From a virus, in IMG/VR virus record IMGVR_UViG_3300020183_004721, positions 1 through 32,163 of that record: a stretch of 32,163 bases of DNA, one strand, 5' to 3'. Positions within the stretch are counted from its first letter, which is position 1. Every line of letters starts with the position of its first letter. The notes under the pieces were generated by a model. It saw nothing but the letters and a program-made list of their open reading frames with translations, had not been told where the DNA came from and ran no database searches. Positions 9,951 to 32,163 of the stretch are shown piece after piece. The translations under genes were made by a program, and so were the position numbers.

Positions 9951-9951
9951 A

Positions 9952-18341: not shown

Positions 18342-18562
18342 CAGACAATGACGAGATCAAAGAACTAGGCTGGTTTGCTCGATTATTTAGAAAAAGGGCG
18401 AAACTGACCTATTGGCTTGATCAACAGGCCTATGTAACCGAAGTGTGTCATTTTAAAGAAATCTCTCCAGAATGTATCGTGTTCAGCGACTATTATACGA
18501 AAAAGAACACTATGGTGAAATATCAAAACAAGATAACTTATGTCTTGGAACAGACTAAGTAG
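18338..18562 (+). CDS. Hypothetical small protein in the lysis block
   Basis: 74 residues, basic N-terminus (WFARLFRKRAKLTYWLDQQAY), then a small beta-like part (VTEVCHFKEISPECIVFSDYY). There is no clear membrane helix. ATGA overlap with the o-spanin stop. It is not recognised; its position suggests co-expression with lysis genes. Confidence 0.6.
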   Translation: MTDNDEIKELGWFARLFRKRAKLTYWLDQQAYVTEVCHFKEISPECIVFSDYYTKKNTMVKYQNKITYVLEQTK

Positions 18563-18570
18563 GAGAAGAA

Positions 18571-18801
18571 ATGGGTTGGTTTCGTAGCATATTTACAGAC
18601 GGCACGGACGACGGAATCAGCAGCAAACGTGTGGTAACCATATTGGCATTTATCATGTGTTCGGCAGGATTTATTGGTGATTTATTCTGGGATTTAGATG
18701 TTAAGGATGTTATATTTGAATCAATGATGTATATAGTTGTAGCAGGACTAGGGTTTACAGCATCGGAAAAATTTTCAAAAAATAAGAAGGATGGTGAATA
18801 G
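18571..18801 (+). CDS. Putative holin (two-helix membrane protein)
   Basis: 76 residues: a short amphipathic N-terminus (GWFRSIFTDGTDDGISSKR), then two hydrophobic helices at about 21-40 (VVTILAFIMCSAGFIGDLFW) and 46-65 (VIFESMMYIVVAGLGFTAS), then a basic tail (EKFSKNKKDGE). This size and layout fit a class II holin, and the gene sits after endolysin and spanins. SD AGGAGAAG lies just before the ATG. The gene at 19109 is an alternative holin candidate, so the call is by topology and context. Confidence 0.55.
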   Translation: MGWFRSIFTDGTDDGISSKRVVTILAFIMCSAGFIGDLFWDLDVKDVIFESMMYIVVAGLGFTASEKFSKNKKDGE

Positions 18802-18857
18802 GTTGATTTTTAATGAATTTTTTGTTAAATAAAGTTGTAGTTTTAATAGGAGCGAGT

Positions 18858-19109
18858 ATGAATTCTGACAAAAGTCTAGCGAGATGGATGATATTACTAA
18901 TACTTTTGCCTATAGGTCTAGCGGCATTCAGCGGAGATCGTTTCCGTTATCCCTGTCAGGATCCTGCCAATTGGGATAAAGCAGAATGCCAAAAACCTAG
19001 ATGCGAGGTAACAAGGACATGTCCGGAACATATTTTTAAAGGTGAAGGACCCTCGGGAACATCGGCCCCAGTTAAAACAGCCGTGGTTGGAAAAAAGGAA
19101 TGTAACTAA
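18858..19109 (+). CDS. Small membrane-anchored Cys-containing protein
   Basis: 83 residues from the ATG at 18858, chosen because AGGAGCG sits directly upstream (18849-18855); an in-frame ATG at 18813 has no SD. One hydrophobic segment at about 9-24 (ARWMILLILLPIGLAAF) could be an anchor or uncleaved signal. The rest carries five Cys (RYPCQDPANWDKAECQKPRC, RTCPEHIF, final KKECN), so it is likely periplasmic with disulfides. I recall a similar FSGDRFRYPCQDP motif in marine phages, function unknown. It shares 1 nt with the next gene. Confidence 0.65.
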   Translation: MNSDKSLARWMILLILLPIGLAAFSGDRFRYPCQDPANWDKAECQKPRCEVTRTCPEHIFKGEGPSGTSAPVKTAVVGKKECN

Positions 19110-19636
19110 TGGAAAAAATAGATCTTAAAGACGGAAAAGAAATGTTCATATATACAGAAGAACAGTTAATGGCTCGACTGAAATTTTTTATAGGTATCTG
19201 TCTAGCACTAACACTGACGGGTATCGTGTTTGTGGTGCTTTATTCGCTGATATTTGTTACACAGCCGATGAATGCCATAGCTCCTATAGATCAAAAGTTT
19301 TTTGAGCTGATCATACCTATCGCTACATTTTTAACAGGTACCCTTTCAGGAATCATGCTGGCAGGCAATGACAAGGATGCAAGGATGGAGGCACTGAAGG
19401 CTGCCAACAGAGGCGGATCACCTAGCCCTAGTCCTAGCATACCAACTCCCAGCCTAGGAGGTGGTGGTTTTTCTGCTAACGCCAATATCGGTGGCGCTAA
19501 TTTTAGTTTTAATAAATCTGCAGCACCGTCCGCAGGGGCATTTACTCCTGCGGCACCGACTGCATCGTTCGCAGCACCTAAGATGAGCAGCACCGGTAAA
19601 CCTATGCCTGTCTTAGAAGATGATGAAGAATTATAA
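19109..19636 (+). CDS. Two-helix membrane protein with Pro/Ala/Gly-rich tail (alternative holin candidate)
   Basis: 175 residues. Two membrane helices at about 25-48 (FFIGICLALTLTGIVFVVLYSLIF) and 66-86 (LIIPIATFLTGTLSGIMLAG) are joined by a short loop. After residue 95 comes a long low-complexity tail (SPSPSPSIPTPSLGGGG, APSAGAFTPAAPTASF) ending EDDEEL. Located in the lysis block, it could be a holin, an antiholin or another envelope protein. Its end overlaps upstream of the SD of the next gene. Confidence 0.6.
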   Translation: MEKIDLKDGKEMFIYTEEQLMARLKFFIGICLALTLTGIVFVVLYSLIFVTQPMNAIAPIDQKFFELIIPIATFLTGTLSGIMLAGNDKDARMEALKAANRGGSPSPSPSIPTPSLGGGGFSANANIGGANFSFNKSAAPSAGAFTPAAPTASFAAPKMSSTGKPMPVLEDDEEL

Positions 19637-19646
19637 GGAGAAAAAT

Positions 19647-19880
19647 ATGTTTAAGAAGATGATTTTCGCAGCAGGTTTAGCATTAGCCGTTTCCATGCCT
19701 ACTTATGCCGACAAGCATGAAAAGAAAGCAGAACCAGAAACCAAACAGGTCTGCGTAGATGTGCAGGGCAAGGATGGTAAACCAGTAATGGATCCTAAGA
19801 CCAACAAGCCCAAGCAAAACTGCGTCACAGTCAAAGTACGTGAAAAATTCGAAGGTACCAAAGTTCCTGAGAAGAAATAA
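19647..19880 (+). CDS. Small secreted (periplasmic) Lys-rich protein
   Basis: 77 residues from the ATG at 19647, where a perfect AAGGAG lies 6 nt upstream (19635-19640); the ATG at 19620 has no such site. A clear Sec signal peptide (MFKKMIFAAGLALAVSMPTYA) with likely cleavage after Tyr-Ala at residue 21 is followed by a hydrophilic mature part with two Cys (KQVCVDVQGKDGKP, KQNCVTVKVREKF). No family recognised. Last gene of the lysis transcript, before a strong terminator; it may act in the periplasm during late infection. Confidence 0.65.
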   Translation: MFKKMIFAAGLALAVSMPTYADKHEKKAEPETKQVCVDVQGKDGKPVMDPKTNKPKQNCVTVKVREKFEGTKVPEKK

Positions 19881-19907
19881 TTTAAACTCAGTAAATCTGT
19901 AGTAAAT

Positions 19908-19936
19908 AAAAGGACTGCTTAATGTAGTCCTTTTTT
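19908..19936 (+). terminator. Rho-independent terminator
   Basis: AAAGGACT (19909-19916) pairs perfectly with AGTCCTTT (19926-19933); a G-U and a C-G pair extend the stem to a 5-nt loop, and the stem runs into six T (19931-19936). It lies 28 nt after the 19880 stop and just before dnaJ, closing the lysis transcription unit. In this gene-dense window it is the only clear intrinsic terminator I found. Confidence 0.88.
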
Positions 19937-19951
19937 ATTATAGAAAATACT

Positions 19952-20794
19952 ATGGACTATTACTCTACTTTAGGTGTTAATAGAAACGCCACCCAAGACG
20001 AAATTAAAAAAGCGTATCGCAAGATGGCTATGAACCATCATCCTGATCGCGGTGGAGATGAGAAAAAATTTAAACAGATTTCGGAAGCCTATGAAATCTT
20101 AAGTGATCCTCAAAAAAAACAGATGGTAGACATGGGTATAGATCCCAAGAGACAACCGCAAGGTAATGGATTCGGACAAAACGGTCCTTTCGAGTTTCAT
20201 TTCAATGCTAACAATTTTGATGATATATTTGGTGGATTCGGATTTGGTGGATTCGGACACAGACATGTTCAAAGAAACAAAACTATCAGCCTCATGGTGG
20301 ATCTTACATTAGAAGATGTCTTACAAGGTAAAAATCTAGATGCAGAAATAGCCATACCTGGAGGAAGGAAAAAGATTATTAATATCGTGATACCGTCTGG
20401 AATAGAAGAAGGACAACAGATAAGATATCAAGGAATGGGAGATAATAGCATTTCTAACATACCTCCCGGAGATTTAATAGTTAATGTTAGAATCATGCCG
20501 CACGGAATGTTTCGACGAGAAGGCGATAACCTAATACTAGAAAAATTCATCTCAGCATGGGATGCCATGTTAGGAACAAAAATAGATATTTCTACACTAG
20601 ACAACAAGTCATTAGAAATCGCTGTACCGGCAGGTAGCCAGCCCGAAACAGTATTAAGTTGCAGAAACGAAGGATTGCCAAATATGCGTAGCAAGTTAAG
20701 AGGTAATCTTTTAGTAAAAATAAAAATTAAAATACCAAAAATTACATCAACTAAACAGAAAGATCTCGTAGAACAATTGAAAAATGGATTATAA
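19952..20794 (+). CDS. dnaJ: DnaJ-like co-chaperone (class B, CbpA-type)
   Basis: 280 residues. J-domain at 1-65 with HPD at 30-32 (NHHPDRGG), a Gly/Phe-rich stretch at about 70-105 ([19 protein letters not shown]), then a beta C-terminal substrate-binding region ([61 protein letters not shown]). The zinc-finger CxxCxGxG repeats are absent, so it is a class B protein. It would stimulate host DnaK on chosen clients. It starts directly after a terminator and overlaps the deformylase gene by 11 nt, heading the DnaJ-PDF-Clp cassette. No strong SD is visible, so its initiation signal is unclear. Confidence 0.9.
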
Positions 20795-21278
20795 ACTAGG
20801 ACCGCATCAAAGCCTTCAACAAGTAAGCACTTCTTGGGATTTTTCTCGAGACGGTGATTCTGAAAAATTAGAATCTGATCTATGTTATTTTATGCAGAAA
20901 CATATGGGTATAGGTTTAGCCGCTAATCAAATAGGTATTGCTAAACAAATTTTTGTAATGGGCAGCGATAATATTCCGGGATTTCCTAAACCCTTCGCAG
21001 TTTTCAATCCAAAAATAATCAGCACAGATCAAGAAAAAGAAATCTTCAAAGAAGGATGTCTGAGTTTCCCTGGACTTTGGTTGAACGTAAAAAGGCCAAA
21101 AAAAATAATAGTGGAGTACCAGAACAGTCGAGGAGACATCATAGAAGCAGAAATGGACGGATTAATTTCTAGATGCTTTCAGCATGAATTTGATCATCTC
21201 AATGGTATATGTTTCGTTGACATCGTTAGTCCCTTGAAGTTAAAATTAGCAATACAAAAACTAAGGAAACAAAAATAA
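20784..21278 (+). CDS. def: Peptide deformylase
   Basis: 164 residues with the three PDF motifs: [10 protein letters not shown] (42-51), EGCLSFPG with metal ligand Cys92 (90-97) and QHEFDH with His134, Glu135 and His138. It removes the N-formyl group from nascent proteins on the ribosome. Marine phages often carry PDF, generally explained as supporting processing of proteins made during infection. Unlike the shortened cyanophage forms I recall, this copy has a C-terminal extension ([19 protein letters not shown]) with a basic helix that could bind the ribosome. It overlaps dnaJ by 11 nt and its stop shares 1 nt with the Clp ATG, so all three are coupled. Confidence 0.93.
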
Positions 21279-23608
21279 TGATAGAGCCCAGCCAGCACCT
21301 GCATAATATCTTTAATACCGCCGTTGAAATAGCCAAGCAGTTAAATCATGAGTACATCACTATAGAACATCTAGTCTATAGCATCATGAGTGATCAAGAA
21401 TCGTATGACATGATTTCTAACTTTGGGGCCGATGCTAATTTTATTAAGACCAATCTAGATCATTATCTAAAAAATAACCTCAAAGAAATCATCTCACAAT
21501 CTCAGGTAAAGAAACCTAAAAAAACCACTAGTGTTGAACGTGTGTTGAATCGATGTTTTACACAGGTTTTGTTCAGCGGCAGGCAACGCATGGAGATCGC
21601 AGACGTTATTATCAGTGTACTGGCTGAAAAAAACAGTTTTGGTTATTATTTTCTAAACAAAGGCGGTCTGACTAAAGAAAAATTTGTGAAATATTTCCAA
21701 GAAAATGTTATCATAGAAGAAGAACAAGAAAGTATTCCAGCGACCACGAACAATCAGATAGAAAGAATTCTAAATCAATTCTGCACGAACCTAACCTTAC
21801 AGGCTAAACAACGTAAGATTGATCCGGTGATAGGACGAGACGAAGAATTAGAAAAAATCCAACTGATTCTAGCACGTAGAAATAAATGCAATGTGTTAAT
21901 GGTAGGAGAACCCGGAGTAGGCAAGACTGCGATCGCAGAGGGGTTGGCTCGAAAGATTTTCGAGGACAAGGTTCCTAAATTTATCAAAGACCATACAGTC
22001 TATACTTTAGATATATCAGCATTATTAGCCGGGTCAAAGTATCGTGGTGACTTTGAAGAACGAATCAAAGCCGTATTCACCGCACTAGAAAAAAAAGGTA
22101 AGATCATTTTATTCATCGACGAAGCACACATGATGCAGGGTGCAGGGGCCGCTAATCAATCAAGCAACGATATGAGCAATATGCTAAAACCCATATTGAC
22201 CAAAAAGTCTATGAAAATCATAGCGTCCACTACCTGGGAAGAATATCGAAAGCACTTTGAAAAAGACCGTGCTTTGATGCGTCGTTTCCAGCGTGTGACC
22301 ATCGATGAACCCAATGAAGAACTAACTATTAAAATCTTAAAAGGATTGAAAAAGTATTATGAAAAACATCATGAAGTAAAAATTACCGATGCTGCTATAG
22401 ATCAGGCTGTGAAACTTTCTATGAAATACATGTCAGATAAAAAACTGCCAGATAAAGCCATAGATATCTTAGACTGCGCAGCGGCTCGATATAAACTTAA
22501 AGATGACGAAAATATGGAAGGTGTAGAACAGATCGTAGATATAGAACAGGTTACCTACGAACTCAGTAAGATGATCAACATGCCATTAGAGATTGTTGCT
22601 CAGAAAGAAAGCAAAAATCTTTCTGATCTAGAAGGAAATATGAAATCATCAGTTTTGGGTCAAGATGGAGCTATTGATACACTGCTAGATAAAATATTCG
22701 TCAGCCAAGCAGGAATGAAATCACCTAACAAACCTGTTGGAAGTTTTCTATTCCTAGGACCTACTGGCTGTGGAAAAACTGAAACTGCCAAACAATTAGC
22801 AGAAAAGATGGGAATGCAATTAGTTCGATTCGACATGAGCGAGTACCAAGAAAAACACTCGGTGGCTCGTCTGATCGGTGCTCCACCGGGCTATGTAGGA
22901 TACGAAGATAATTCCGGTCAACTGATCACTAAATTACAAGAATATCCCAATTGTGTGTTGCTGCTAGATGAAATCGAAAAAAGCCATCCTGATGTTTCTA
23001 ACATCTTGCTGCAGTTTATGGATAACGGTTTCGTCACAGGATCGAATGGCAAACAGGCCGATGGTCGCAACTGTATCCTTATCATGACCAGCAACTTAGG
23101 TGCCCGGGACAACGAAAACAACACCATCGGGTTCGGCGAACTTGAGCGCGAAGGAGAAGATGATAAAGCTATTAAAAAGTTTTTTGCTCCGGAATTTCGC
23201 AATCGACTAGATGCAGTAGTGAAATTTGGTAGATTAAACATCGAAACTGTAGAAAAAATCGTACATAAATTTATCAACGATTTAAACTTCCAACTTAGAG
23301 ACAAGAATATTGAAATAGTAGCAGATGATAATTCTGTTAAATGGTTGGCAAAAAACGGATATGATCGAAAAATGGGAGCCAGACCGTTAGCCAGATTGAT
23401 CGATAATAAAATAAAATCACCGTTGAGTAGAAGGGTTCTGTTTGGCGATCTCGTCGACGGCGGAAATATACACATCCAACTATCTGGAGAAGAAATCACT
23501 TTTACCGTCACTGAACGGGCGAAACCGTTAACAAAACAACAGAAAAAATTATTAAAGAGAGGATCTCCTTTAGTGATGGAAGAAAAAATCGAAGATGCAC
23601 AAACATAG
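21278..23608 (+). CDS. clpA: ClpA-type Hsp100 unfoldase with ClpP-docking loop
   Basis: 776 residues (E. coli ClpA is 758). N-domain at about 1-150 in two Clp-N-like halves ([40 protein letters not shown]). First AAA+: Walker A GEPGVGKT (210-217), [11 protein letters not shown] and LFIDEAH. There is no long ClpB middle coiled coil. Second AAA+: Walker A GPTGCGKT (494-501), [20 protein letters not shown], Walker [13 protein letters not shown] (around Asp564), [10 protein letters not shown]. Ile617-Gly618-Phe619 ([10 protein letters not shown]) lies where E. coli ClpA has its ClpP-binding IGL loop, so it should dock on a ClpP peptidase. No clpP is present in the window, so host ClpP is the likely partner. 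Its end overlaps the next gene by 14 nt. Confidence 0.92.
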
Positions 23609-24266
23609 TATCACTAAAAAGAAGTTCTACGGAAAATGGTTGTATAAGGCCGCACTAAAGATTCCCGGTGTGGCTATTCTCCGTGCGAATTCATTAGATG
23701 GTGCCATCGAGTTATTGAATAAATGTTTCTCAGATGACCATACTAGATATCATTATTATAAAAAAGCCTTTGCTAACAAAGAAGATATGACTAATTTGTG
23801 TCAGTATCTCAAATCTTTAAGCGCAAATGATTGGTACAAAAGGATCGAAAGAGATAATATAGATCTCTATACGAATGATCCAAAAATTCACAATTATCTT
23901 GTTAACAGATTCCGACACATATTGTGTTTGGTCAGCGAACCAGACATTTCTAGAAAGGATGAATACGAGGATACTCATCACATACTTTGCAAAAAATTAC
24001 CTCACGATCGTTACAGATATCGCATCTATCTCAAACCGCACAATATGCATGGTGATAAATCGGCCAAAAAAAATTATATCGATTGGTTAGAAACTCAAAA
24101 TAGCGTTCTAATATCTCAAGCGGTCAAAAAATGGTTCATTGTCACTGATTGGAATTGGGATCCTAGATATATTTTAGTAGAAGATCATAAAACGCTGCTG
24201 TTTTTACACATGAGAAATTCAGAAGTTCTAGGAAGGATATATGAATATATATTATCCGATAAATAA
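23595..24266 (+). CDS. Unrecognised conserved-looking phage protein after clpA
   Basis: 223 residues, basic, rich in Tyr/His/Trp, no membrane helix or signal. Landmarks are KKKFYGKWLYKAALKIPG, DDHTRYHYYKKAF, HILCKKLPHDRYRYRIYL and KPHNMHGDKSAKKNYIDWL, then VKKWFIVTDWNWDPRYILV and LLFLHMRNSEVLGRIYEYI. I know no family with certainty. The 14-nt overlap with clpA implies co-translation, so a role as adaptor or inhibitor for the Clp machine is worth testing, though this rests on position only. It is followed by 24270-24638 with a 3-nt gap. Confidence 0.6.
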   Translation: MHKHSITKKKFYGKWLYKAALKIPGVAILRANSLDGAIELLNKCFSDDHTRYHYYKKAFANKEDMTNLCQYLKSLSANDWYKRIERDNIDLYTNDPKIHNYLVNRFRHILCLVSEPDISRKDEYEDTHHILCKKLPHDRYRYRIYLKPHNMHGDKSAKKNYIDWLETQNSVLISQAVKKWFIVTDWNWDPRYILVEDHKTLLFLHMRNSEVLGRIYEYILSDK

Positions 24267-24269
24267 GAG

Positions 24270-24638
24270 ATGCCCATCGAAAACACAGTATTATTGTCAA
24301 ACATAAGCACAGAATCAACTCCCGGAATCTTTTCTTATGGAAGCAAAAAAAAGGCCGCTGGTTATCACAAAATCAGTGATGGGCTGCATACAGCGATTTA
24401 TACCGTGAACAGTTTTTCCGGGACCATAAAAATACAAGGTACTCTAAATCTGTATCCGGGGGACAGTGATTGGTTTGATATCGATAACACAGAAATAGGT
24501 GGAGATAGTTCTGAGATAGGCGGAGCAGATGGATTAAATTTCACAGTCTCCCGTAATTTTACTGGCAATTTCCTTTGGATCCGTGCAGCATACCACTTAG
24601 AGAACGGTATCATAGTAGATCTTAGGTTTAGTTACTAA
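24270..24638 (+). CDS. Small beta-rich protein, probably virion-associated
   Basis: 122 residues with alternating beta strands and turns (GLHTAIYTVNSFSGTIKIQG, YPGDSDWFDIDNTEIGG, FTVSRNFTGNFLWIRAAY). It has no Cys, is acidic and near-complete as a single beta-sandwich-like domain. It resembles small virion decoration or fibre-tip proteins in composition, but I cannot name a family. A GATAAATA sequence lies immediately before the ATG, but it is the stop region of the previous gene and too close to serve as a promoter. Confidence 0.6.
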   Translation: MPIENTVLLSNISTESTPGIFSYGSKKKAAGYHKISDGLHTAIYTVNSFSGTIKIQGTLNLYPGDSDWFDIDNTEIGGDSSEIGGADGLNFTVSRNFTGNFLWIRAAYHLENGIIVDLRFSY

Positions 24639-24650
24639 AAAAATATTCAC

Positions 24651-24658
24651 GATAAATA
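24651..24658 (+). promoter_or_regulatory. T4-type late promoter (GATAAATA) for the modular-protein array
   Basis: GATAAATATA at 24651-24660 matches the late element TATAAATA at 7 of 8 positions, lies in a 44-nt non-coding gap and is followed by a strong SD and the ATG at 24683. Using the T4 rule that the element spans about -13 to -6, transcription would start near 24664. Similar elements occur at 15599 and 32116. Confidence 0.65.
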
Positions 24659-24659
24659 T

Positions 24660-24682
24660 AGTATCACCTCGCGGGAGATACT
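24660..24682 (+). promoter_or_regulatory. Inverted repeat covering the ribosome binding site
   Basis: AGTATC (24660-24665) is perfectly complementary to GATACT (24677-24682), directly before the ATG; two further C-G pairs can form inside after an A-A mismatch. The 3' arm and inner loop contain the SD (GGGAG, 24673-24677), so read-through RNA would hide it. A late transcript starting near 24664 would lack most of the 5' arm and keep the SD free. Confidence 0.55.
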
Positions 24683-25699
24683 ATGAGAGACCTTTTATCA
24701 AAATTAGACGCCATAATCAACGAAACAGCACTGAATCCTAAAGATCCTAAAGCAGACTATGCTGCAAAGAGCAAAGCACTTGACGATCTAGAACGGGATG
24801 GACAGACCGATAAAAGTGCCATACAACAGCGAAGATTAGATCTAGACAAAGAAGCCAAAACTAAAAACGTCAAAGAAGACACCGTTTTCGAAGTAGGTGA
24901 CGATTTCGGTATCAGTTTTTCCAAAGATCTCGAAATAGCCACAGAAATCGTGGGTTTCGTAGAAGATGGAATCGTTATCGATCTAGATGAACAGGCCCTA
25001 GCTGTGTTGGAATCCGAGGGGCTGCTGTTTCTAGAAGGTGAGTTAGTCAACGAAGAAAAACAAAAAGGTGTTGACGGCAAAGTCTGCTGGAAAGGCTACA
25101 AGCGCATGGGCACCAAAATGAAAGGTGGCAAACGTGTAGACAACTGCGTCAAGGTAGGTGAAGATAATGATGTAGATGAAAGCGGTCTACAATATTACAC
25201 AGGCAAAAAGAAATACGGCAAAGATGGCATGGCAGCATTAGCACAAGCAGGTCGAAAAGGTGCTTCTGAAGAAGAACTAGGGCGCATCAAAGACAAATAC
25301 AAAAAAGAAGATACAGATATCGAAGAAGCAAAATATCCTTTTGCTGGTGCTAAGGTAGGACAAAAAGAAGGTCCTGCAGGACAGTTGAAAGGCAAAGATC
25401 CTGCAGGTTATCCTAAAGGAAAACTAGTAGGTGGTGAAAGTATAGAAGAAGGCATGGACGAAGCCAAATATCAAGGTAGAGAGGTTCCTCTAGGTAAGAA
25501 AATGGCCGGTGATGTAAAGAAATCAAAAGTTTATGTACGCAAACCAAATGGTAATATTGTCAAGGTAAACTTCGGCGACAAGAAGATGCGCATCAAGAAA
25601 TCCAACCCCGCTCGTAGGAAATCATTCCGTGCCCGTCATAACTGTAAAAATCCTGGTCCACGTTGGAAAGCACGTTATTGGTCATGCAGGTCTTGGTAA
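24683..25699 (+). CDS. Modular internal-protein candidate with basic Cys/Trp C-terminal module
   Basis: 338 residues. The N-terminal helix MRDLLSKLDAIINE ends in I-N-E, which fits the (L/I)-x-E prohead-protease consensus. Visible modules: a charged linker (about 15-65), FEVGDDFGISFSKDLEIATE with VDLDEQ-type beta/helix (about 70-120), VCWKGYKRMGTKMKGGKRVD (about 132-155), YYTGKKKYGKDGMAALAQAG (about 173-195), AKYPFAGAKVGQKEGPAG (about 217-240), and the C-terminal basic module with RRKSFRARHNC, WKARYWSCRSW. Boundaries coincide with DVDE-S, DIEE-A and SIEE-G, all plausible cleavage sites. No enzyme motif. First gene behind a late promoter. Confidence 0.65.
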   Translation: MRDLLSKLDAIINETALNPKDPKADYAAKSKALDDLERDGQTDKSAIQQRRLDLDKEAKTKNVKEDTVFEVGDDFGISFSKDLEIATEIVGFVEDGIVIDLDEQALAVLESEGLLFLEGELVNEEKQKGVDGKVCWKGYKRMGTKMKGGKRVDNCVKVGEDNDVDESGLQYYTGKKKYGKDGMAALAQAGRKGASEEELGRIKDKYKKEDTDIEEAKYPFAGAKVGQKEGPAGQLKGKDPAGYPKGKLVGGESIEEGMDEAKYQGREVPLGKKMAGDVKKSKVYVRKPNGNIVKVNFGDKKMRIKKSNPARRKSFRARHNCKNPGPRWKARYWSCRSW

Positions 25700-25700
25700 T

Positions 25701-26036
25701 ATGAAATTATTAGAAATGTTTAGTCCCATTGGGGCTCCTAAAGACGATCAACAAGATATTGATTGGTTAGAAGATCTTAAATTTTTTATCGACAATGACG
25801 ATAAGATGCTCAATCAATTTTTCTTTCCTGCTATAAAAAAGCACAAGGAGCATCAAGGAAATCCTAATGCATACAAACTGTACATCAGACCGTTGAGTAA
25901 ATGCAAAGAAGCCTATTGCAAAAAATTTGAAATCGAGCAACCGGAAGAAAAATTTACAAAAGAAAAGATTATCGAACTAGCCAAATATATCGCTTCAGAA
26001 CAAGAAAACTTTTTGAAAAAAGGCGATTATAATTAA
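25701..26036 (+). CDS. Hypothetical phage protein
   Basis: 111 residues from the ATG at 25701 (MKLLEMFSPIGAPKDD), 1 nt after the previous stop; an upstream in-frame ATG at 25629 lies inside the preceding gene and reads shadow sequence. Acidic N-terminal part (DWLEDLKFFIDNDDKMLNQF), then helical (FFPAIKKHKEHQGN, YIRPLSKCKEAYCKKFEI, EKIIELAKYIASEQENFLKK). I recall similar sequences in marine T4-like phages without function. Its N-terminus lacks a clean (L/I)-x-E site, unlike its neighbours. Confidence 0.62.
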   Translation: MKLLEMFSPIGAPKDDQQDIDWLEDLKFFIDNDDKMLNQFFFPAIKKHKEHQGNPNAYKLYIRPLSKCKEAYCKKFEIEQPEEKFTKEKIIELAKYIASEQENFLKKGDYN

Positions 26037-28492
26037 TGTTATTATCAGAATTATTCGAAGATTCAGTCAAGCATGTTACATTCTGTTTCGGTAGAATGAA
26101 TCCTCCTACCATAGGTCACAAACAGGTCCTAGATACTATGAAATCTCAGGGCGGGGAAATAAAGATATTCGTTAGCCAGAGCCAAGATGCCAAAAAGAAT
26201 CCTCTAGATTATTCTACCAAGATCAAATTCATCAAGGCCATGTTTCCAGAATATGCCCAGGATGTGGTAGAAAATTCTAGCCTAAACACCGTGGTCAAGG
26301 TGGCCAGTTATCTCTATGATCAGGGATATACTGCTGCGACATTTGTCGCAGGTAGTGATCGTCTAGACGATATGAAAAAACTACTGGAAGCATATAATGG
26401 AGTAGAAGGTAAGAGCCACGGTTATTACAAATTCGAAGTGCTAGATTTTGCCAGCAGCGGTGAGAGAGAAGACGGTGCTGAAGGTGTTGCAGGTGTTTCA
26501 GCTAGTGGTGCCAGAGCGGCGGCAGCTAATGGCGACTTGGAATCGTTTAAAGAAGCCACAGGGGCCGGTGAACTAAGCGAAAAGTTATATGCGGCTGTTC
26601 GTAAAGGTATGGGCATATCAGAATCATACAAAATCGCAGAATCCGTTTCTATAGATTCAGCGATAAAGAATATCGTTGCTACAGGTGATAGTGTCGCAAA
26701 GACCTATGGCGATCTCAAGACCATGGCGGAGAAGTGGGTCTATAACAACGGCACGCTCAAAGGATTCCACAGGAATGCCGCAGGTGTAGGTAAACGTTGG
26801 TATGACACATTCTTTTGGAACAAGATGGAAAACGATCTACGCACACTGCTACAGAAAAATCCCAAGGCCGCAGCGAAGATACAAGACTTTCTCAACATAG
26901 AGAAGGACGACAAAGGTCATGTCAGTTTTAACATCATCGGACGCAGCCTGCCGAGAATATTAAACGACGTGGGCGAGAAAATGGGCAACGACGATCTCAA
27001 GAGATTTGGTGCTAACTGGTTCAAGCGACAGAAAGACTACGAAGATTATCTAGGTCGTGTAGAAAAAGAAGTAAACGATGAAGAAGATGATGATGACTTC
27101 TCTCCCGCACCTAAACAACCCAAAGACAATGTGGTAGGCCGTCAGAACGCTGCTGCCGAAGACATAGTAAACCAGATACTCAAGAGTATTGACAAGAAGG
27201 CTGCGGGAGAGATACGCAACATCATCGCCAGAGAGCCTAATAAACTACAGGCCCTGCAGAAAGAGTTAGCGAAACGCAACATCAAGGTAGGCGAATCGAT
27301 ACGCAGGATAAAGGAACAAATCCTCGCCGAACTGCTCGAACTAACTACAGAATTCGTGAAATTAAATGACGGTAGTTTTGTTCAGATACAATATAGACCG
27401 ATGTTAAACAGGCAACCTATGCCAGGTTCCGTACAAATATCGGTAGCAGATCCAAGAGTCATTCCTAATATCACAACAGTTAGGCCGTTGGCCTCTGCGG
27501 GAGCATGGCAGCAGGACGCAATAAACAAAGCAGCATCATCTGGACAGTTAAAACAAAAACAATCAGGACAAGGTGTGGCGGAAGGCATCCGTGTGGTAGA
27601 TCAAGACTACGATCTCGATCAAATCATATTAACTTTAGATATCGAAGGTCGGAGAGCATCATTTACCTATACTGATTACGATGAGAACTTTGAAAACGCA
27701 GAAAGAAAGGATGTGTTTGATCAACTACAGGAAAAATCATGGTATAAGGGTTTAGATCATCCTACTAAAATGGAGATCTTAGATGCTGCCTACAAGGCTA
27801 TAAGAGGTGAAGAACCGAGCGAATACAAACCTACAGTTGGTGATGAGCCATTAGACATAGACGAAGGTGTCTCGGAAGGCGATTTAGAAGAAGACTGGCG
27901 GAAGAAATTGGCCGCTGCGGGCATGGCCGGCATGATGGGACTCAGCGGTGCTGCTGGTGCAGCAGATCGTGTACCGGATACTGCCAAAGAACCTATCATA
28001 GCTACTGTAGTCATCGACGGTGAAGCGAGGAGATTAGATCTCACTCCTAAAGGGTTTGACGATGTCAAAGAAGCAGAAAGATTTTTAAAAAAATTCTTGG
28101 CGGATCGAGGTATAAAAGATTGGCAGGCCAAGATAGAACGCAGTAAACCGGGAACAGGCAAGTATGAGAGGTTGACTATCTCAGGCATGGGTGGATTAGA
28201 AAGCATACATGAAGCGCCTATAGAGATGGATCCTAGCGATCCAATGGATCCTATGATCTACGGACACGATCGAGCCAATCCCGGAAAACTGAAATATCGC
28301 ATGGCAAGAGCGGCCGGACAATTAAAAGATCTATCTTCGAGAGTAGACGGTGCAAGCGCCAGTGAATGGCAGATGATGGCTCGTCAATTCGAAGAACTGA
28401 AGATGAACATGGAACAGATAAGACATGCCTTGGAAGAACTGGGCAAAGTCAGGAAGAAGGGTGGCATTCGATCGAGAGAAATAACAGTATGA
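26036..28492 (+). CDS. Large modular protein with N-terminal nucleotidyltransferase domain; internal-protein candidate
   Basis: 818 residues. It opens MLLSELFED, close to the T4 Alt N-terminus and with L-F-E at the possible cleavage point. Residues about 12-200 form a nucleotidyltransferase of the cytidylyltransferase-like superfamily: FCFGRMNPPTIGHKQVL (T-x-G-H), IFVSQSQDAKKNPL, KIKFIKAMFP, FVAGSDR and VSASGARAAAANGD. Later parts look like joined modules: a helical domain (about 205-350), a linker (DEEDDDDFSPAPKQPKD), helices, a beta segment (LTTEFVKLNDGSFVQIQYRP), then QGVAEG (about 516), a domain with YTDYDENF, EGVSEGDLEEDW (about 614), a hydrophobic stretch (MAGMMGLSGAAGAA) and a helical C-terminus. 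The substrate is unknown. Confidence 0.75.
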   Translation: MLLSELFEDSVKHVTFCFGRMNPPTIGHKQVLDTMKSQGGEIKIFVSQSQDAKKNPLDYSTKIKFIKAMFPEYAQDVVENSSLNTVVKVASYLYDQGYTAATFVAGSDRLDDMKKLLEAYNGVEGKSHGYYKFEVLDFASSGEREDGAEGVAGVSASGARAAAANGDLESFKEATGAGELSEKLYAAVRKGMGISESYKIAESVSIDSAIKNIVATGDSVAKTYGDLKTMAEKWVYNNGTLKGFHRNAAGVGKRWYDTFFWNKMENDLRTLLQKNPKAAAKIQDFLNIEKDDKGHVSFNIIGRSLPRILNDVGEKMGNDDLKRFGANWFKRQKDYEDYLGRVEKEVNDEEDDDDFSPAPKQPKDNVVGRQNAAAEDIVNQILKSIDKKAAGEIRNIIAREPNKLQALQKELAKRNIKVGESIRRIKEQILAELLELTTEFVKLNDGSFVQIQYRPMLNRQPMPGSVQISVADPRVIPNITTVRPLASAGAWQQDAINKAASSGQLKQKQSGQGVAEGIRVVDQDYDLDQIILTLDIEGRRASFTYTDYDENFENAERKDVFDQLQEKSWYKGLDHPTKMEILDAAYKAIRGEEPSEYKPTVGDEPLDIDEGVSEGDLEEDWRKKLAAAGMAGMMGLSGAAGAADRVPDTAKEPIIATVVIDGEARRLDLTPKGFDDVKEAERFLKKFLADRGIKDWQAKIERSKPGTGKYERLTISGMGGLESIHEAPIEMDPSDPMDPMIYGHDRANPGKLKYRMARAAGQLKDLSSRVDGASASEWQMMARQFEELKMNMEQIRHALEELGKVRKKGGIRSREITV

Positions 28493-29634
28493 AAGCCAAA
28501 GATTTTATACCCGCAAGCAAACCTAGAAACTTTGTAGCCAAGAATCAACAGACCGCAGGCGCTGGTGCACATCGCGACAAGAAGAAAGCGCAGAAACAGG
28601 GCTACGAGAAGCACAAAGGCAAAGGTGTCCGGGAAGGCAGTAAAATCGCTGTAGATCGCAAAACCGGTCGATACTATGATCCAGATAAAGAACTTGACAA
28701 ACTATTGAACCAACACAAAGCTCAATTTCAAGGTATGGCCGCGATTGAAAAAGCACAGAGTTCTGCTAAAAAAGCCAAACCTAAAAAGCCAGATGTCTCA
28801 GAAGGCGACGAACCAGATGAGCAGTATCTAGACAAGGTCATCAGCGATCTATACAAGGATACCTACGGTATGCGTCCAGATCACGAGTTCGGTCGAGAGT
28901 GGATGTCAAGCAATTACGAAGAAAAACTTGAGATCTATAACAGCATATTAAAAAATCTACACAGTGATATGGATGAAGGTATTGGTGGTACGATCGCCGG
29001 TGGCGTGGGTCAGTTCATTGGCAATAAAATCGATCCTCTACATGGAGAAATCTTAAGAACTCACGGTGAGATGGCTGGTAGAAAAGCAGAATATATTATA
29101 CGAAAGTATATGCACTTACTACAGAAATCTCTCAAGAAACAACTAGATTCTGGAGAGAAGGAAGGTGTCCGAGAAGGCAGCGACTGGGGCGAACCTAGAG
29201 AGATACTGGAAGATGTTCTACAGACTTTGGAGCGTGAAGTAGAGTGGCCATTGACCGAGGTAATGGATCCTAGAGAAGTACGCCAACTATTGGCACCTAT
29301 CATAAAAGCAGTAAATGATAAAATGATGAGTATGAAAGAAGCACAAGACGACTGGGGCGGTATGAGCCACAGAGAATTCAAGCGTAAAGAATTACAGCAT
29401 GAACTAGGACATGAAGACGATCCGGACTTTGAACGCAAGATGCGCCAACAACAGATGGATAAGGATAAAGGCCCGTGGTATATCCGTATCAATGGTAAGA
29501 TCTACAAGCAGAAGGGCGAAGCCAAAGTGTTCGACTGGAAAAAAGGTGCTAACAATTATGCCCTAGCCATACTGAAGAACAAGCCGGAGTTGCAAGGTAA
29601 AGTCCTGATAACTAAAAATCCCTCGGATCAATGA
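28489..29634 (+). CDS. Modular phage protein, internal-protein candidate
   Basis: 381 residues from the ATG at 28489, which overlaps the previous TGA (ATGA); an upstream in-frame ATG at 28366 would read far into the previous gene. The N-terminus MKAKDFIPASKPRNF resembles the neighbouring MRAREFI peptides but lacks the Glu. Modules are separated by short linkers: GKGVREGSK (about 45), DVSEGDEPDEQ (about 102), DMDEGIGG (about 162) and EGVREGSDWGE (about 225). The GIGGTIAGGVGQFIG stretch is Gly-rich and hydrophobic. The last module (GPWYIRINGKIYKQKGEAKV, KKGANNYALAILKNKPELQG) is one I recall from the C-termini of marine phage proteins. No enzyme motif. Confidence 0.65.
   Translation: MKAKDFIPASKPRNFVAKNQQTAGAGAHRDKKKAQKQGYEKHKGKGVREGSKIAVDRKTGRYYDPDKELDKLLNQHKAQFQGMAAIEKAQSSAKKAKPKKPDVSEGDEPDEQYLDKVISDLYKDTYGMRPDHEFGREWMSSNYEEKLEIYNSILKNLHSDMDEGIGGTIAGGVGQFIGNKIDPLHGEILRTHGEMAGRKAEYIIRKYMHLLQKSLKKQLDSGEKEGVREGSDWGEPREILEDVLQTLEREVEWPLTEVMDPREVRQLLAPIIKAVNDKMMSMKEAQDDWGGMSHREFKRKELQHELGHEDDPDFERKMRQQQMDKDKGPWYIRINGKIYKQKGEAKVFDWKKGANNYALAILKNKPELQGKVLITKNPSDQ
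28621..28640 (+). repeat. Short coding repeat at module boundary (copy 1; copy 2 at 29161-29180)
   Basis: AAAGGTGTCCGGGAAGGCAG at 28621-28640 and GAAGGTGTCCGAGAAGGCAG at 29161-29180 match at 18 of 20 bases and both encode GVREGS. Weaker relatives encode GVAEG (27569-27586), GVSEG (27863-27882) and DVSEG (28792-28809). Confidence 0.6.
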
Positions 29635-29870
29635 TGGAAATCGCAGAATTAAAAAGGTTGGCTGGTATCAATGAATTTAAAGGATATGTAAAATACGATC
29701 CTGTAAATCCCAACGATGGTAGTAATATCAGCATAACTGGTAATGAAAAGGGCGAAATACAGAAAAAAAACAATATAAAACCAGGAACTCCTGAATGGTT
29801 CCAACTATGGTTTAGTTTGCCTTACATGACCGGGGAACGTCCAGTAGGAGATAAAAAATGGTTGAGATAA
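29631..29870 (+). CDS. Small phage protein with capsid-targeting-like N-terminus
   Basis: 79 residues (or 78 from the adjacent ATG at 29634). [14 protein letters not shown] forms an amphipathic helix ending I-N-E, a possible prohead-protease site. The rest ([41 protein letters not shown]) carries a conserved-looking [12 protein letters not shown] segment that I recall from marine phages. ATGA overlap with the preceding gene and 13-nt overlap with the Fe-S carrier gene. Confidence 0.62.
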
Positions 29871-30184
29871 CTGAAGCAGCAAAAATAAAGATCATAGATC
29901 TGTTGATTGACGAAAACAATCCCAAGTTATTTCTCCGCACCTTTGTGCAGGGAGGTGGATGTAGCGGTTTCAGTTATGGATTTACTTTTGATGAAGAAGT
30001 TAATGAAGATGATTTTGAATTTTCTCTAGATGAAAAATATAAGTGTGTTATTGATTCTATGAGTATGCAATACATGACCGGAGCGACAATAGATTATAAA
30101 GAAGAACTAATGGGTAGTCAGTTTACCATAAAAAATCCAAATGCTGAAACTACCTGCGGATGTGGGAGTAGTTTTTCTATATGA
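29858..30184 (+). CDS. A-type Fe-S cluster carrier (HesB/IscA/ErpA family)
   Basis: 108 residues with the full A-type signature: [31 protein letters not shown] with Cys35, [24 protein letters not shown] and the C-terminal CGCG (Cys100, Cys102). These proteins accept and pass on Fe-S clusters. Homologues are common in marine T4-like phages; the phage client is not known. It lacks a capsid-targeting N-terminus, so it should act in the infected cell. Overlaps: 13 nt with the gene before and 4 nt (ATGA) with the one after. Confidence 0.92.
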
Positions 30185-30552
30185 GAGCCCGAGAATTCAT
30201 CAAAGAAGCAAGAAATACACAGGGAGATGTGGCCTCTGGTTTCGATCCAATCCAGAGCGATCCTCTGACCTTGACCTATGTGTTTCCTACTATGCCTGCG
30301 AACAATCCTTACAGGACCTACAGGTTCAGCATGGCCGTGGCCAATCATGATGCAGAACCTATGGAAAACCCTACCAGCCAGATGGCCATGATGTCGGCCT
30401 ATACCAAAGAAGAAGATGACATGCTGAAGAAAGCCATGAAGAAAACCGGCGATCGTGGACACGTTGCAGGCAACCAAGGCAGTAAAGAACCAAAAGACAC
30501 CGGTCATCACAGTCCTGTGGCACGGGCCAAACGCAATCGCTGGGGAGTGTAA
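30181..30552 (+). CDS. Internal-protein candidate with [10 protein letters not shown]-terminus
   Basis: 123 residues opening [10 protein letters not shown], strikingly like the capsid-targeting peptide of T4 IPIII (MKTYQEFIAEA), with I-K-E before the expected cut. The mature part would have a beta-like segment ([34 protein letters not shown]), a Met-rich helix ([20 protein letters not shown]) and a basic, His-rich tail ([18 protein letters not shown]). The first 18 nt are nearly identical to those of the next gene at 30556 (only the first base differs), so the start peptide was copied or exchanged as a DNA unit. Function unknown. Confidence 0.68.
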
Positions 30553-30555
30553 GCA

Positions 30556-31731
30556 GTGAGAGCCCGAGAATTCGTCATCGAGAAGAAACGCCGCAAGCGT
30601 AGACCACGGTGGGCTGCCTATGGTCCAGGACCCTACGGCGGTTATGGCTACTACGCAGGTTATAGTGGAGACGGCGGAGGCGGTGATGGCGGAGTAGGTG
30701 AAGCCAGCTATCCCGGCAACGTCGGAGCCATGGAGATAACTAAATTCTTTAGGATAGCAGGTCCTAAAGAAAAAGATCTGTTGAAAGTGTTGATACAACG
30801 CAAAGACTACAGCCGAGCCTGGGCATTGATACAGGGTATCACGGGTGTAAAACTACAGGGACGAGAATTCCAAACCGACGAAGGATGGCGAGATACACTG
30901 GCTGGATTGGCGTTAGGTACCGGTGTAGCCATGGGCAGCCCTGCTGATGCTAAAACTAATGTAGAACGAGTTGTCGTATCACCGGGACAAACTGTGTATT
31001 CTATAGCCAAAGCATTTGATACTACCCCGGAAGTCATTCAAAAATTAAACAAATTAGATAAAGATTTTACTATCAAACCCGATCAGGTTATAAAAGTTCC
31101 TAAGATAGATACAGTTGAAATTCCTTCTAAAGAAAAAAAATCTATTGATAGTAAAAAATCTGTAGAAAAGAAAGATGAAAAGAAATCCGAAAAGAAAATA
31201 GACACCAACAAAACTCTAACCGGAAAACCTTTTGAAGCATTGCTAACTCGAACCGCTCGGTCGTCCGGAATCACAGATCCTATCGAACTGGCGGCTTTCC
31301 TAGCCCAGACTTCTGTAGAGACTGGAAGATTCAAACACATGAGAGAAGTCGGCAACAAAGAAAGGATCGAAAGGATGTACGATCTAAAATTCAACCGACA
31401 AGGTGCTAAGATACTAGGCAATACCAAACCCGGAGACGGCTGGAGATATCGAGGTAGAGGATTTATACAATTGACTGGCAGAGACAATTATACCAGAGCC
31501 GGCAGAGATCTCGGCCTCGATCTAGCCAAAGATCCCGATCTAGTGGCCAGAGAGCCTGAAGTCGCGGCCAGAGCCAGCGTATGGTATTGGAAAACCCACG
31601 TTAGACCACAGGTAAACGATTTTAGAGATACTGCTGCAGTTACCAAAGCGGTTCAAGGGGGGTCGTCTGCGCTGGATCGTAGAGAACGCGAATTCCAAAA
31701 TTTTAAACAATTTAAATTGGCTAAAATATGA
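30556..31731 (+). CDS. LysM-GH19 muralytic enzyme with capsid-targeting-like N-terminus
   Basis: 391 residues from a GTG start, supported by GGGAG nearby and by the N-terminus MRAREFVIE, which matches the neighbour at 30181. Order: basic Gly/Tyr-rich region (about 10-47), GVGEA junction, helical module (51-105), QTDEGW and a hydrophobic stretch (TLAGLALGTGVAMGSPADA, 114-132), LysM domain (138-182, SPGQTVYSIAKAF ... IKPDQVIKVPK), Lys/Glu-rich linker (192-216), then a GH19-type domain (about 223-391) with likely catalytic Glu255 (TSVETGRF) and WRYRGRGFIQLTGRDNY. LysM binds and GH19 cleaves peptidoglycan. Because a separate endolysin exists at 16857, this one is more likely a virion enzyme, possibly packaged and ejected. 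Confidence 0.82.
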   Translation: MRAREFVIEKKRRKRRPRWAAYGPGPYGGYGYYAGYSGDGGGGDGGVGEASYPGNVGAMEITKFFRIAGPKEKDLLKVLIQRKDYSRAWALIQGITGVKLQGREFQTDEGWRDTLAGLALGTGVAMGSPADAKTNVERVVVSPGQTVYSIAKAFDTTPEVIQKLNKLDKDFTIKPDQVIKVPKIDTVEIPSKEKKSIDSKKSVEKKDEKKSEKKIDTNKTLTGKPFEALLTRTARSSGITDPIELAAFLAQTSVETGRFKHMREVGNKERIERMYDLKFNRQGAKILGNTKPGDGWRYRGRGFIQLTGRDNYTRAGRDLGLDLAKDPDLVAREPEVAARASVWYWKTHVRPQVNDFRDTAAVTKAVQGGSSALDRREREFQNFKQFKLAKI

Positions 31732-31928
31732 AAGCTCACGAATTCATAACTGAAAATTTTGCAGACGGTAAACGCAAAGGAAAGAGTCGGCCAGGTCGTG
31801 TAAAACGTGCAGGTGCCAGTTGTAATGGTAGCGTGACAGATTTACGCAAACGTGCTAAGAATAGTTCTGGGGAACGGGCTAAAATGTATCACTGGTGTGC
31901 TAATATGAAATCAGGGCGGAATAAATAA
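31728..31928 (+). CDS. Small basic Cys/Trp protein with capsid-targeting-like N-terminus
   Basis: 66 residues. MKAHEFITEN fits the MRAREFI family and has I-T-E before a possible cut. The rest is a very basic module: GKSRPGRVKRAGASCNGSV, TDLRKRAKNSSGERAKMYHW, then CANMKSG. I recall this module from marine T4-like phages; the paired Cys (in ASC and HWC) could bind a metal, and the charge would suit contact with packaged DNA, both inference. ATGA overlap with the gene before. Confidence 0.7.
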   Translation: MKAHEFITENFADGKRKGKSRPGRVKRAGASCNGSVTDLRKRAKNSSGERAKMYHWCANMKSGRNK

Positions 31929-31931
31929 TTA

Positions 31932-32120
31932 ATGATGAAAATACGTGAAATATTCGAAACCGCCACAGCAGAATCAACATCCGCTGGAAGTGTTTCTGTG
32001 GGCGTAGTTTATCCTAATAAAAAAGCGAAAACTCCTAAAAACAAGGACGGTACAGCAAAAAACGCATTAGATCTGAAAGGAGCCAACTTGTTGACCGGTG
32101 GCTCTTTGGTCAAAAGATAA
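31932..32120 (+). CDS. Small internal-protein candidate (MKIREIFE N-terminus)
   Basis: 62 residues (61 from the adjacent ATG at 31935). MKIREIFETATA gives I-F-E at the possible prohead-protease cut. The remainder is low in hydrophobics: SAGSVSVGVVYPNKKAKTPK, then DGTAKNALDLKGANLLTGG ending VKR, a C-terminus I recall from marine phage proteins. The start is 3 nt after the previous stop. Its TAA lies inside a late-promoter-like element for the next gene. Confidence 0.65.
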   Translation: MMKIREIFETATAESTSAGSVSVGVVYPNKKAKTPKNKDGTAKNALDLKGANLLTGGSLVKR

Positions 32121-32123
32121 ATA
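32116..32123 (+). promoter_or_regulatory. T4-type late promoter (GATAAATA)
   Basis: GATAAATATA, identical over 10 nt to the element at 24651-24660, overlaps the stop of the 31932 gene and lies 26 nt before the ATG at 32150. Predicted initiation would be near 32129, giving a leader of about 20 nt with an SD. Confidence 0.55.
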
Positions 32124-32149
32124 TAATATCAACCTTTAGGAAATCTAAA

Positions 32150-32163
32150 ATGGACTTCAAATC
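32150..32163 (+). CDS. Start of a gene running off the window
   Basis: ATG at 32150 (reads MDFK, then the edge) is preceded by an AGGA SD at about 32138-32141 and a late promoter at 32116. Only four full codons are visible, so no product can be named. Confidence 0.45.

Follow-up and report, generated by a model that had tools for sequence, protein, structure and literature searches.

A gene cluster at positions 24683–32120 of the virus record IMGVR_UViG_3300020183_004721, analyzed here over its full 32,163 bases (the window), encodes a series of proteins that begin with short tags resembling the capsid-targeting sequences of T4 and that, in the longer proteins, carry the same kind of hydrophobic-x-Glu site between internal modules. 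The best reading of this architecture, which we consider probable, is T4-type capsid targeting of payload polyproteins that are cut by the prohead protease. On this reading, the cluster would serve a T4-like (Kyanoviridae-like) phage as a payload island, in which most genes start with a capsid-targeting sequence that would carry the protein into the prohead core. There, the head-maturation protease (gp21, family S77) would cut after hydrophobic-x-Glu and free the cargo. Several genes appear to encode polyproteins, and one precursor would give rise to separate internal proteins, such as a nucleotidyltransferase, small basic proteins, and a LysM–GH19 peptidoglycan hydrolase. A shared type of site at the module borders would let modules move between precursors or occur singly after a tag. 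The analysis shows the tags and sites, the persistence of the sites in dissimilar contexts, the exchange of modules, and the presence of protease and head genes in a relative, and others have shown tagged relatives in virions; cutting at these precise positions and ejection together with the DNA are inferred.

An earlier note had listed eight such N-termini as address tags closely resembling that of T4 IPIII, placed on otherwise unrelated proteins. All eight are encoded where it located them, apart from two minor shifts: reading from the ATG at 29631 yields MMEIAEL and the listed tag actually starts at 29634, and translation from 31932 gives MMKIREIFE, with MKIREIFE starting at 31935. The start codon at 30556 is GTG. 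The start at 28489 overlaps the end of the preceding gene, and that of its counterpart in the related contig G003 was called with a 4-base Shine–Dalgarno match. Six of the eight N-termini (8–14 residues) strictly fit (L/I)-x-E; MRAREFVIE is a V-x-E variant and MKAKDFIPA does not fit. Three cluster genes lack a usable tag, namely those at 25701 (MKLLEMFSPIGAP, no Glu), 28489 (PA end, no Glu), and 29858, and the 25701 protein is probably not processed. The tag at 24683 is kept in G002 (IISE) and G003 (IVSE), and the homologues of the 29634 protein have tags ending in INE (G015), ITE (G017), or VSE (G005). The resemblance to T4 was borne out: the EFIKE/EFITE core matches EFIAE of IPII and IPIII, and gp61.1 shares it. 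The content behind the tags differs in Pfam and PHROG terms, and the carriers are otherwise unrelated, as the earlier note had held.

The relatives used for comparison comprise contigs and named phages. G001 (71 kb) and G002 (99.7 kb) are near-identical to the window, and G003–G006 are its cousins. With the 26036 protein as the query, the top-ranked named phages were C48C1 and Methylophilales phage Melnitz, with mostly cyanophages after them; a Kyanoviridae classification is given for C48C1, Melnitz, and S-SM2. Two loose tag regular expressions (regexes) were drafted before any count, when the tags in the window and in G003, G005, Melnitz, and C48C1 were known. Across nine genomes or contigs, they matched 25 of 94 genes of the syntenic cluster versus 44 of 1147 genes elsewhere (odds ratio 9.1, p = 1.2e-12), in agreement with the predicted enrichment of the tag at this locus in related genomes. 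The enrichment persisted in the five whose N-termini were unseen at drafting (G007, G008, G010, G011, and S-SM1; 9/51 versus 25/655, p = 3.4e-4). Among single genomes, the cluster matches reached 4 of 8 genes in G002 and 6 of 13 in C48C1, and were not significant alone in G011 (1/11, p = 0.43), G007 (2/7, p = 0.14), and G010 (p = 0.07). In G011 (117,666 bases), the matches in the second half mirror the first half on the opposite strand, like an inverted-duplication assembly artefact, and one half only was counted. In none of seven genomes or contigs did the genome-wide total of loose matches rise above the maximum from 200 shuffles (count versus shuffle maximum: T4 14/17, S-SM1 6/10, C48C1 13/14, Melnitz 10/12, G002 5/7, G003 4/4, and G005 7/7). 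The case rests on genome position, tighter geometry, and proteomics. The loose regexes are noisy in T4, where the 14 matches among 222 called genes include IPII, IPIII, gp61.1, and gp24.

A tight regex for the window variant, ^M[KRLFIM]{1,2}[AILPV].[DE][FILV].{1,2}E, matched 23 of 107 cluster genes and 2 of 661 genes outside the cluster, in a set of 11 contigs that includes near duplicates; the in-cluster count was fitted, and the outside count, for which shuffling expects 0.8, is the only test. One of the two outside matches is a second nucleotidyltransferase-like protein of G010 (MLIFEVISE↓ATAK, the arrow marking the putative cut), located at 139257–139868 in reversed coordinates, far from the cluster and on the opposite strand. 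Gene 61.1 of T4 (NC_000866, complement 18966–19130) encodes a 54-residue protein whose start, MKTFKEFIKE, is very like a capsid-targeting sequence. In C48C1 (OQ984149, 63448–64857), a GTG at 63448 gives the tag MIKNFSQYLLE, and the annotated cytidyltransferase start (63514) is probably too late.

Proteins bearing the same kind of tag have been detected in virions of relatives. The T4 review reports that residues 4 and 7 of IPIII are important for targeting and residues 8 and 10 for processing (PMC9026906). A regex of this geometry (F or Y near position 4, hydrophobic residues at 7 and 8, and Glu at 10) matched three of the 222 called T4 genes, which are gp61.1, IPII, and IPIII. In cyanophage S-CREM2, it matched four of 219 annotated proteins, all non-structural or hypothetical virion proteins detected by mass spectrometry: a SAM hydrolase (MKDFDSFLEE), an APH-like kinase (MKRFDAFLTE), ORF136 (MQTFSMFFSE), and a cytidylyltransferase (MKNFSSFLTE). 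Detection of 28 non-structural or hypothetical proteins in purified S-CREM2 virions is given in Table 3 of PMC10665884, whose authors describe such proteins as possibly packaged or possibly unseparated. The geometry occurs in 4 of 28 virion-detected non-structural proteins versus 0 of 191 other coding sequences (p = 2.2e-4); Phe at position 8 was admitted post hoc, on seeing ORF136, and without this wobble the counts are 3/28 versus 0/191 (p = 0.0019). The loose regexes, fixed before S-CREM2 was retrieved, gave 5/28 versus 7/191 (p = 0.010), the latter comprising 24 structural proteins (0 matches) and 167 undetected ones (7 matches). The S-CREM2 cytidylyltransferase is homologous to the nucleotidyltransferase domain of the 26036 protein (36.8% over 193 residues, E 2e-36). 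The S-SM1 cytidylyltransferase is also homologous to this domain and starts with MKKFSAFLNE↓A, and its family, T4-GC190, is reported from S-SM1 virions (PMC3037559). NMNAT is likewise reported from S-SCSM1 virions (PMC9602691). Exact IPIII geometry is found in some proteins of C48C1, Melnitz, S-SM1, and S-CREM2, and in none called from G005, G008, or G010. A stretch of about 40 residues after the tag is shared by the nucleotidyltransferases of S-SM1 and S-SM2 and the kinase and Cas9 of S-CREM2. A side observation concerns gene 12 of S-CREM2 (OR473000, complement 7704–10313), a virion-detected Cas9-like protein in which a short leader precedes the capsid-targeting-like core RFASFMAE↓A at residues 18–25; this Cas9 may travel in the head. 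Comparison of published tables with the sequences places all four IPIII-geometry proteins of S-CREM2, and T4-GC190 of S-SM1, among the virion proteins detected in relatives, in line with capsid loading of tagged proteins.

The short N-termini could in principle be helical localization or membrane-binding peptides, or a product of stop/start overlap bias, unrelated to capsids. Short amphipathic helices are common, and ATGA overlaps impose Met-Lys or Met-Arg starts at several cluster genes. Such an overlap cannot account for Glu and a hydrophobic residue at fixed spacing, and the rarity of the tight variant outside the cluster, together with the restriction of the IPIII geometry to IPII, IPIII, and gp61.1 in T4 and to virion-detected proteins in S-CREM2, makes this explanation very improbable.

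The hydrophobic-x-Glu(-small) site also recurs inside the long cluster proteins, between modules, a feature that the earlier note had overlooked. In the 28489 protein, an extra module lies exactly between GVRE↓G and DVSE↓G; the G003 copy lacks it and joins GVRE↓G directly to DEPDEQY. The window has module M1 in its nucleotidyltransferase protein and G005 has it in a DUF7230-like protein, with GVAE↓G and GVSE↓G on its two sides in both. Nine of ten other contigs have VAE, VSE, or FAE before it, and G010 has SSE. The last window gene (MKIREIFE↓TATAES) corresponds in G005 to the C-terminal part of a polyprotein, where it follows DVAE↓. The basic Cys/Trp module of the 24683 protein is preceded by MGE, MNE, LEE, LTE, LPE, or MME in six other phages. 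The NFADG module follows the same kind of site either as a tag end (MKAHEFITE↓, MKIRDILE↓, MKVREIISE↓) or internally (GGGVGE↓, NVGE↓); in G017, it stands after a GGGVGE linker similar to the one that precedes a different module in the 30556 protein. In G010, at about 40047–41770, the M1-bearing polyprotein is interrupted by a stop and a frame change, which may be real or an assembly error.

The module difference between the 28489 protein and G003, the relocation of M1, and the TATAES module in G005 motivated a test of the internal sites. Copies of seven modules were collected in the contigs at E values up to 1e-3, giving 41 rows. The near-identical G001, G002, G004, and G006, the mirrored half of G011, and hits starting beyond probe residue 3 were dropped beforehand. 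Since the module borders had been cut at the sites of the window copies, the 7 window copies were set aside, as were 9 rows with an upstream region at least 40% identical to that of an earlier row, all 9 of which carry the motif. In the 25 upstream contexts that are less than 40% identical (six of the seven modules), position −1 is Glu in 23 (0.92) and position −3 is L/I/V/M/F in 20 (0.80). Columns −4 to −15 of the same contexts are near background, with Glu at 0.04–0.16 and L/I/V/M/F at 0.08–0.32. The context of a module changes while the preceding site mostly stays. In the cluster proteins, 3 sites fall within 482 residues of recognized folded domains versus 25 within 1774 residues outside them, a difference in the expected direction, although the count is small and depends on analyst-set domain limits. 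No peptidase family was matched in the ten cluster proteins by Pfam or PHROGs.

For the lineage of the window, the density of the sites agrees with this. In nine genomes or contigs, the motif [LIVMF]xE[AGS] occurs 147 times in cluster proteins versus 87.6 expected by shuffling (z 7.9, ratio 1.68). The control motifs in the cluster gave z values of −1.2 for D, 1.9 for K, 2.1 for Q, and −3.2 and −0.6 for two shifted-E motifs. As a positive control, ranking of the T4 proteins by site excess placed gp22 first, gp21 third, and gp67 fourth; gp22 and gp67 are named as gp21 substrates (PMC5694885). In G010 and C48C1, gp22 likewise shows the top site excess, and the head precursors of S-CREM2 contain 19 sites versus 5.9 expected.

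A candidate protease and its putative head substrates are encoded in G010 (168 kb), which is linked to the window through M1. Its S77 prohead protease (E 2.9e-25) retains the HP and SSRG stretches of T4 gp21, which contain H85 and S140 of T4, presumably the catalytic residues. The start region of the G010 capsid protein includes ALSE↓SATAG and that of the protease NIVTE↓AIDDG. Among the relatives, the capsid proteins align at FLTE↓A (T4), ILTE↓T (S-SM1), FLTE↓T (C48C1), and FLSE↓A (Melnitz), which we take to be the T4 maturation site. The earlier note had expected matching sites in capsid and scaffold proteins. Such sites are present in G010 (gp23 ALSE↓S, gp21 NIVTE↓A, and gp22 with the top excess), and the window itself gave no S77 match. 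Together with the T4 IPII/IPIII/gp61.1 core and the S-CREM2 virion proteins, the S77 protease and matching sites of G010 support reading the shared start as an address tag. The sites might alternatively serve another protease, either host Clp or the phage ClpA-like ATPase (21278–23608), with products acting in the producing cell. The ClpA/ClpB-like gene lies a few genes upstream of the cluster and a peptidoglycan hydrolase could aid lysis; we nevertheless judge this route highly unlikely, since gp22 and gp21 of T4, G010, and C48C1 are enriched in this motif, the capsid proteins align at a site of the same type, a separate GH19-like gene is present at 16857, and relatives of the cargo are found in virions.

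Several observations weigh against targeted, protease-cut payload polyproteins. The motif shows a small excess outside the cluster (1036 versus 945.8, ratio 1.10, z 3.1), and the reversed motif is also in excess within it (z 3.3). In Melnitz and S-SM1, gp22 falls outside the top nine proteins by site excess, and in G002 the top-excess protein lies outside the cluster. Five of the 25 upstream contexts lack the motif (M1 of G010, with SSE; M2 of G012, G013, and G014; and the DEPDEQ module of G015), three sites lie inside the nucleotidyltransferase domain, and the TDE↓ site at 30874 violates the hydrophobic rule. The loose regexes miss IPI and Alt and find two (IPII and IPIII) of the four known internal proteins of T4; 23 of the 28 detected non-structural proteins of S-CREM2 carry no loose tag; and detection of tagged proteins in virions covers relatives (S-CREM2 and S-SM1), not the window virus or its close relatives. 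An S77 match was obtained in 1 of the 18 lineage records searched (G000 included): there was none in the window or the six closest contigs (G001–G006), mostly fragments, and none in ten of eleven further contigs, also mostly fragments but including G008 (137 kb) and G011 (118 kb). The window has no head genes. Finally, the Melnitz cluster shows almost no site excess (18 versus 14.8), and ten packaged or cluster proteins of S-CREM2 show little (19 versus 14.6). The polyprotein format is therefore seemingly confined to the lineage of the window; it looks like a speciality of that lineage, with the tag more widespread.

The little excess in the Melnitz and S-CREM2 cargo also speaks for a variant in which prohead targeting by the tags and their cleavage do take place but the internal hydrophobic-x-Glu-Gly stretches act only as flexible linkers that ease domain shuffling, leaving the long proteins whole. 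The Gly-rich nature of GVAEG-like linkers and the distant M2 copies (G012, G013, and G014) without hydrophobic-x-Glu point the same way. We consider such linkers unlikely, although less so than the two alternatives above, because positions −3 and −1 are kept while the glycine and the rest vary (MGE, LEE, LTE, LPE, MME, VGE, ISE). Moreover, the NFADG and TATAES modules have the same kind of site at a tag end or internally, and no D, Q, or shifted motif is equally enriched.

The proposed processing of the payload by the prohead protease relates to several known systems. Like T4 IPII and IPIII, the cluster places a short N-terminal peptide (8–14 residues here) ending in hydrophobic-x-Glu on unrelated, mostly basic proteins, with an EFIxE core and an S77 protease in the lineage. 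Unlike them, the window tags are often one residue shorter and without an aromatic residue 4, some (MKAKDFIPA) lack the Glu, and long multi-module proteins with internal sites bear the tag too. The tag has been discussed as a possible evolutionary means for T4-like phages to load various proteins (PMC9026906). Virion-associated cyanophage enzymes include the cytidylyltransferase of S-SM1 and S-CREM2, the SAM hydrolase, kinase, and Cas9 of S-CREM2, and the NMNAT of S-SCSM1 (a sequence outside the comparison). The S-SM1 and S-CREM2 nucleotidyltransferases are homologous to that of the window and both carry a T4-geometry tag; among the proteins compared, no clear internal-site excess is seen. The passages of the cyanophage virion papers that report or discuss carriage do not name the tag. 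Polyvalent proteins of phages and plasmids (Iyer et al. 2017; P1 DarA/DdrB) are described as multidomain payloads, for some of which cutting by peptidases of their own has been suggested (PMC5512222). They resemble the cluster proteins in their shuffled domains, their movement with phage DNA, which for the window we would only propose, and, for some, cutting before packaging. They differ in that some, such as P1 DdrB, have an embedded peptidase, whereas none was found in the ten cluster proteins, whose sites fit the head protease. In giant phages, propeptides are known to be cut several times within one precursor (PMC5694885; PMC10052503). The ejection proteins of phiKZ and SPN3US share with the window several prohead-protease sites per cargo protein and common N-termini on diverged proteins; there, the extra cuts lie within a propeptide, whereas the window sites bound distinct modules exchanged between genes.

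The tag itself is a known device in a new place. For tags and module borders sharing one kind of site, we found no report, and the locus looks like a shuffling library of capsid payload. A literature search for capsid targeting in cyanophages, with supplements and most subscription articles outside its reach, returned only the T4 review (PMC9026906), and by title no aquatic-phage work was among the matches listed. If correct, the tag would provide a readable code for proteins carried inside the heads of aquatic T4-like phages. It would also explain the recurring cytidylyltransferase and NMNAT in cyanophage virions, for which the S-CREM2 and S-SCSM1 papers leave packaging versus contamination undecided, and it suggests that the phage-borne Cas9 and kinase of S-CREM2 are packaged cargo. 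The modular, protease-cut format would allow delivered proteins to be reshuffled without redesigning delivery. Existing virion mass spectra could address the payload question at once, via semi-tryptic peptides.

A more tentative extension, which we consider doubtful, is that these are true payload polyproteins, built of a tag and interchangeable modules that the prohead protease separates throughout, with several effectors delivered from a single gene, and that head maturation also sets an export switch lasting one generation. In some precursors, the new N-terminus left by cleavage would be a signal-peptide-like segment (GWRDTLAGLALGTGVAMGSPADA before LysM–GH19; GWKEKLAAAGLAATIGLGAAGGAQA). Such cargo would not be exportable in the producing cell and would become exportable in the next. 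In ten proteins of six contigs, the cut would leave a basic residue followed by a stretch of at least 17 residues that includes no charged residue and no N, Q, or H; most of these segments have, by eye, an AxA-like end, as in the one before LysM–GH19. They follow 14 of 408 cluster sites versus 27 of 2459 outside; since most of the 14 are homologues, the switch is only a lead. In SPN3US, the mature fragment of the ejection protein gp47 is reported to begin with a transmembrane segment as well (PMC5694885).

The features of the cluster are listed in Table 1.

Table 1. Tagged genes, internal sites, and modules of the cluster, in window coordinates.
Position	Strand	Feature	Source
24683..25699	+	Tagged protein MRDLLSKLDAIINE↓TALN, 338 residues; 78-residue C-terminal basic Cys/Trp module; internal IEE↓A, IEE↓G, MDE↓A	
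25451..25462	+	Internal GMDE↓ site preceding the basic Cys/Trp module	
25701..26036	+	Tag-like start MKLLEMF, no Glu site	
26036..28492	+	818-residue putative polyprotein; tag MLLSELFE↓D; nucleotidyltransferase PF01467 (residues 17–120); modules between hydrophobic-x-Glu sites	Pfam, PHROG
27572..27583	+	Internal GVAE↓G at M1 start	
27587..27832	+	Module M1 (IRVVDQDYDL..SEYKP), in different host proteins elsewhere	
27866..27877	+	Internal GVSE↓G at M1 end, then hydrophobic signal-like segment DWRKKLAAAGMAGMMGLSGAAGAA	
28489..29634	+	381-residue putative polyprotein; tag-like start MKAKDFIPA; DUF7230-like module (below Pfam cut-off); modules after GVRE↓G, DVSE↓G, GVRE↓G	
28624..28635	+	Internal GVRE↓G	
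28792..28803	+	Internal DVSE↓G	
29164..29175	+	Internal GVRE↓G preceding module M2 (SDWGEPREIL..)	
29634..29870	+	Tagged small protein	
29858..30184	+	A-type Fe-S carrier (PF01521), untagged, within the cluster	Pfam
30181..30552	+	Tagged protein, 123 residues, MRAREFIKE start	
30556..31731	+	Tagged 391-residue putative polyprotein MRAREFVIE↓K; GVGE↓ASYPG module; TDE↓GWR signal-like segment; LysM + GH19 peptidoglycan hydrolase	Pfam
30691..30702	+	Internal GVGE↓A	
30874..30882	+	Internal TDE↓ preceding signal-like GWRDTLAGLALGTGVAMGSPADA	
31728..31928	+	Tagged small basic protein MKAHEFITE↓NFADGK, isoelectric point 10.8	
31935..32120	+	Tagged small basic protein MKIREIFE↓TATAES	

Six of the ten cluster proteins have no Pfam match. 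Searches of phage collections with window positions 14000–32163 (nucleotide, near matches), the 66-residue basic protein, and the 28489 protein returned no match. The cluster of G003 extends beyond the window with MKINEIITE.. (tagged) and MDFKSL.. (no regex match), and a DNA polymerase gene follows shortly after its end. For the 30556 protein, an AlphaFold2 model from a four-sequence alignment was too poor to use (mean predicted local distance difference test score (pLDDT) 48.5, predicted template modeling score 0.31); the segments that hold its sites after residues 9, 49, and 109 (1–59 and 99–134) have pLDDT below 50, a weak indication that was not relied on. Scaffold mimicry was considered for the 29634 tag, which resembles the C-terminus of the G010 scaffold (INLKKLAGIR), and was rejected, as the LAGI motif ends unrelated proteins and the regex misses gp22 of T4, S-SM1, C48C1, and Melnitz. 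A clamp-loader-like protein of G011 (26631) and a 183-residue protein of G008 (21006) carry this motif C-terminally.

Elsewhere, the window encodes a T4-type clamp loader, PhoH, DnaJ, a ClpA/B-like ATPase, and a GroES-like protein. A 991-residue subtilase (2630–5605; PF00082 in two stretches, seemingly with a long insert) lies near tail-fibre-like genes. At 16857–18341, the second GH19-like gene (209 residues, below the Pfam cut-off) is followed, by eye, by a signal-anchor gene and a lipoprotein-like gene. This region is perhaps an ordinary lysis cassette, with the tagged LysM–GH19 protein at 30556 possibly an extra hydrolase. In G002, a NifU-like gene and a second A-type carrier lie close together at 59328–60245, as judged by eye. 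At 45–320 of the window, a frame open to the left end encodes a DUF6321 domain of a small basic family, and this protein could be further cargo.

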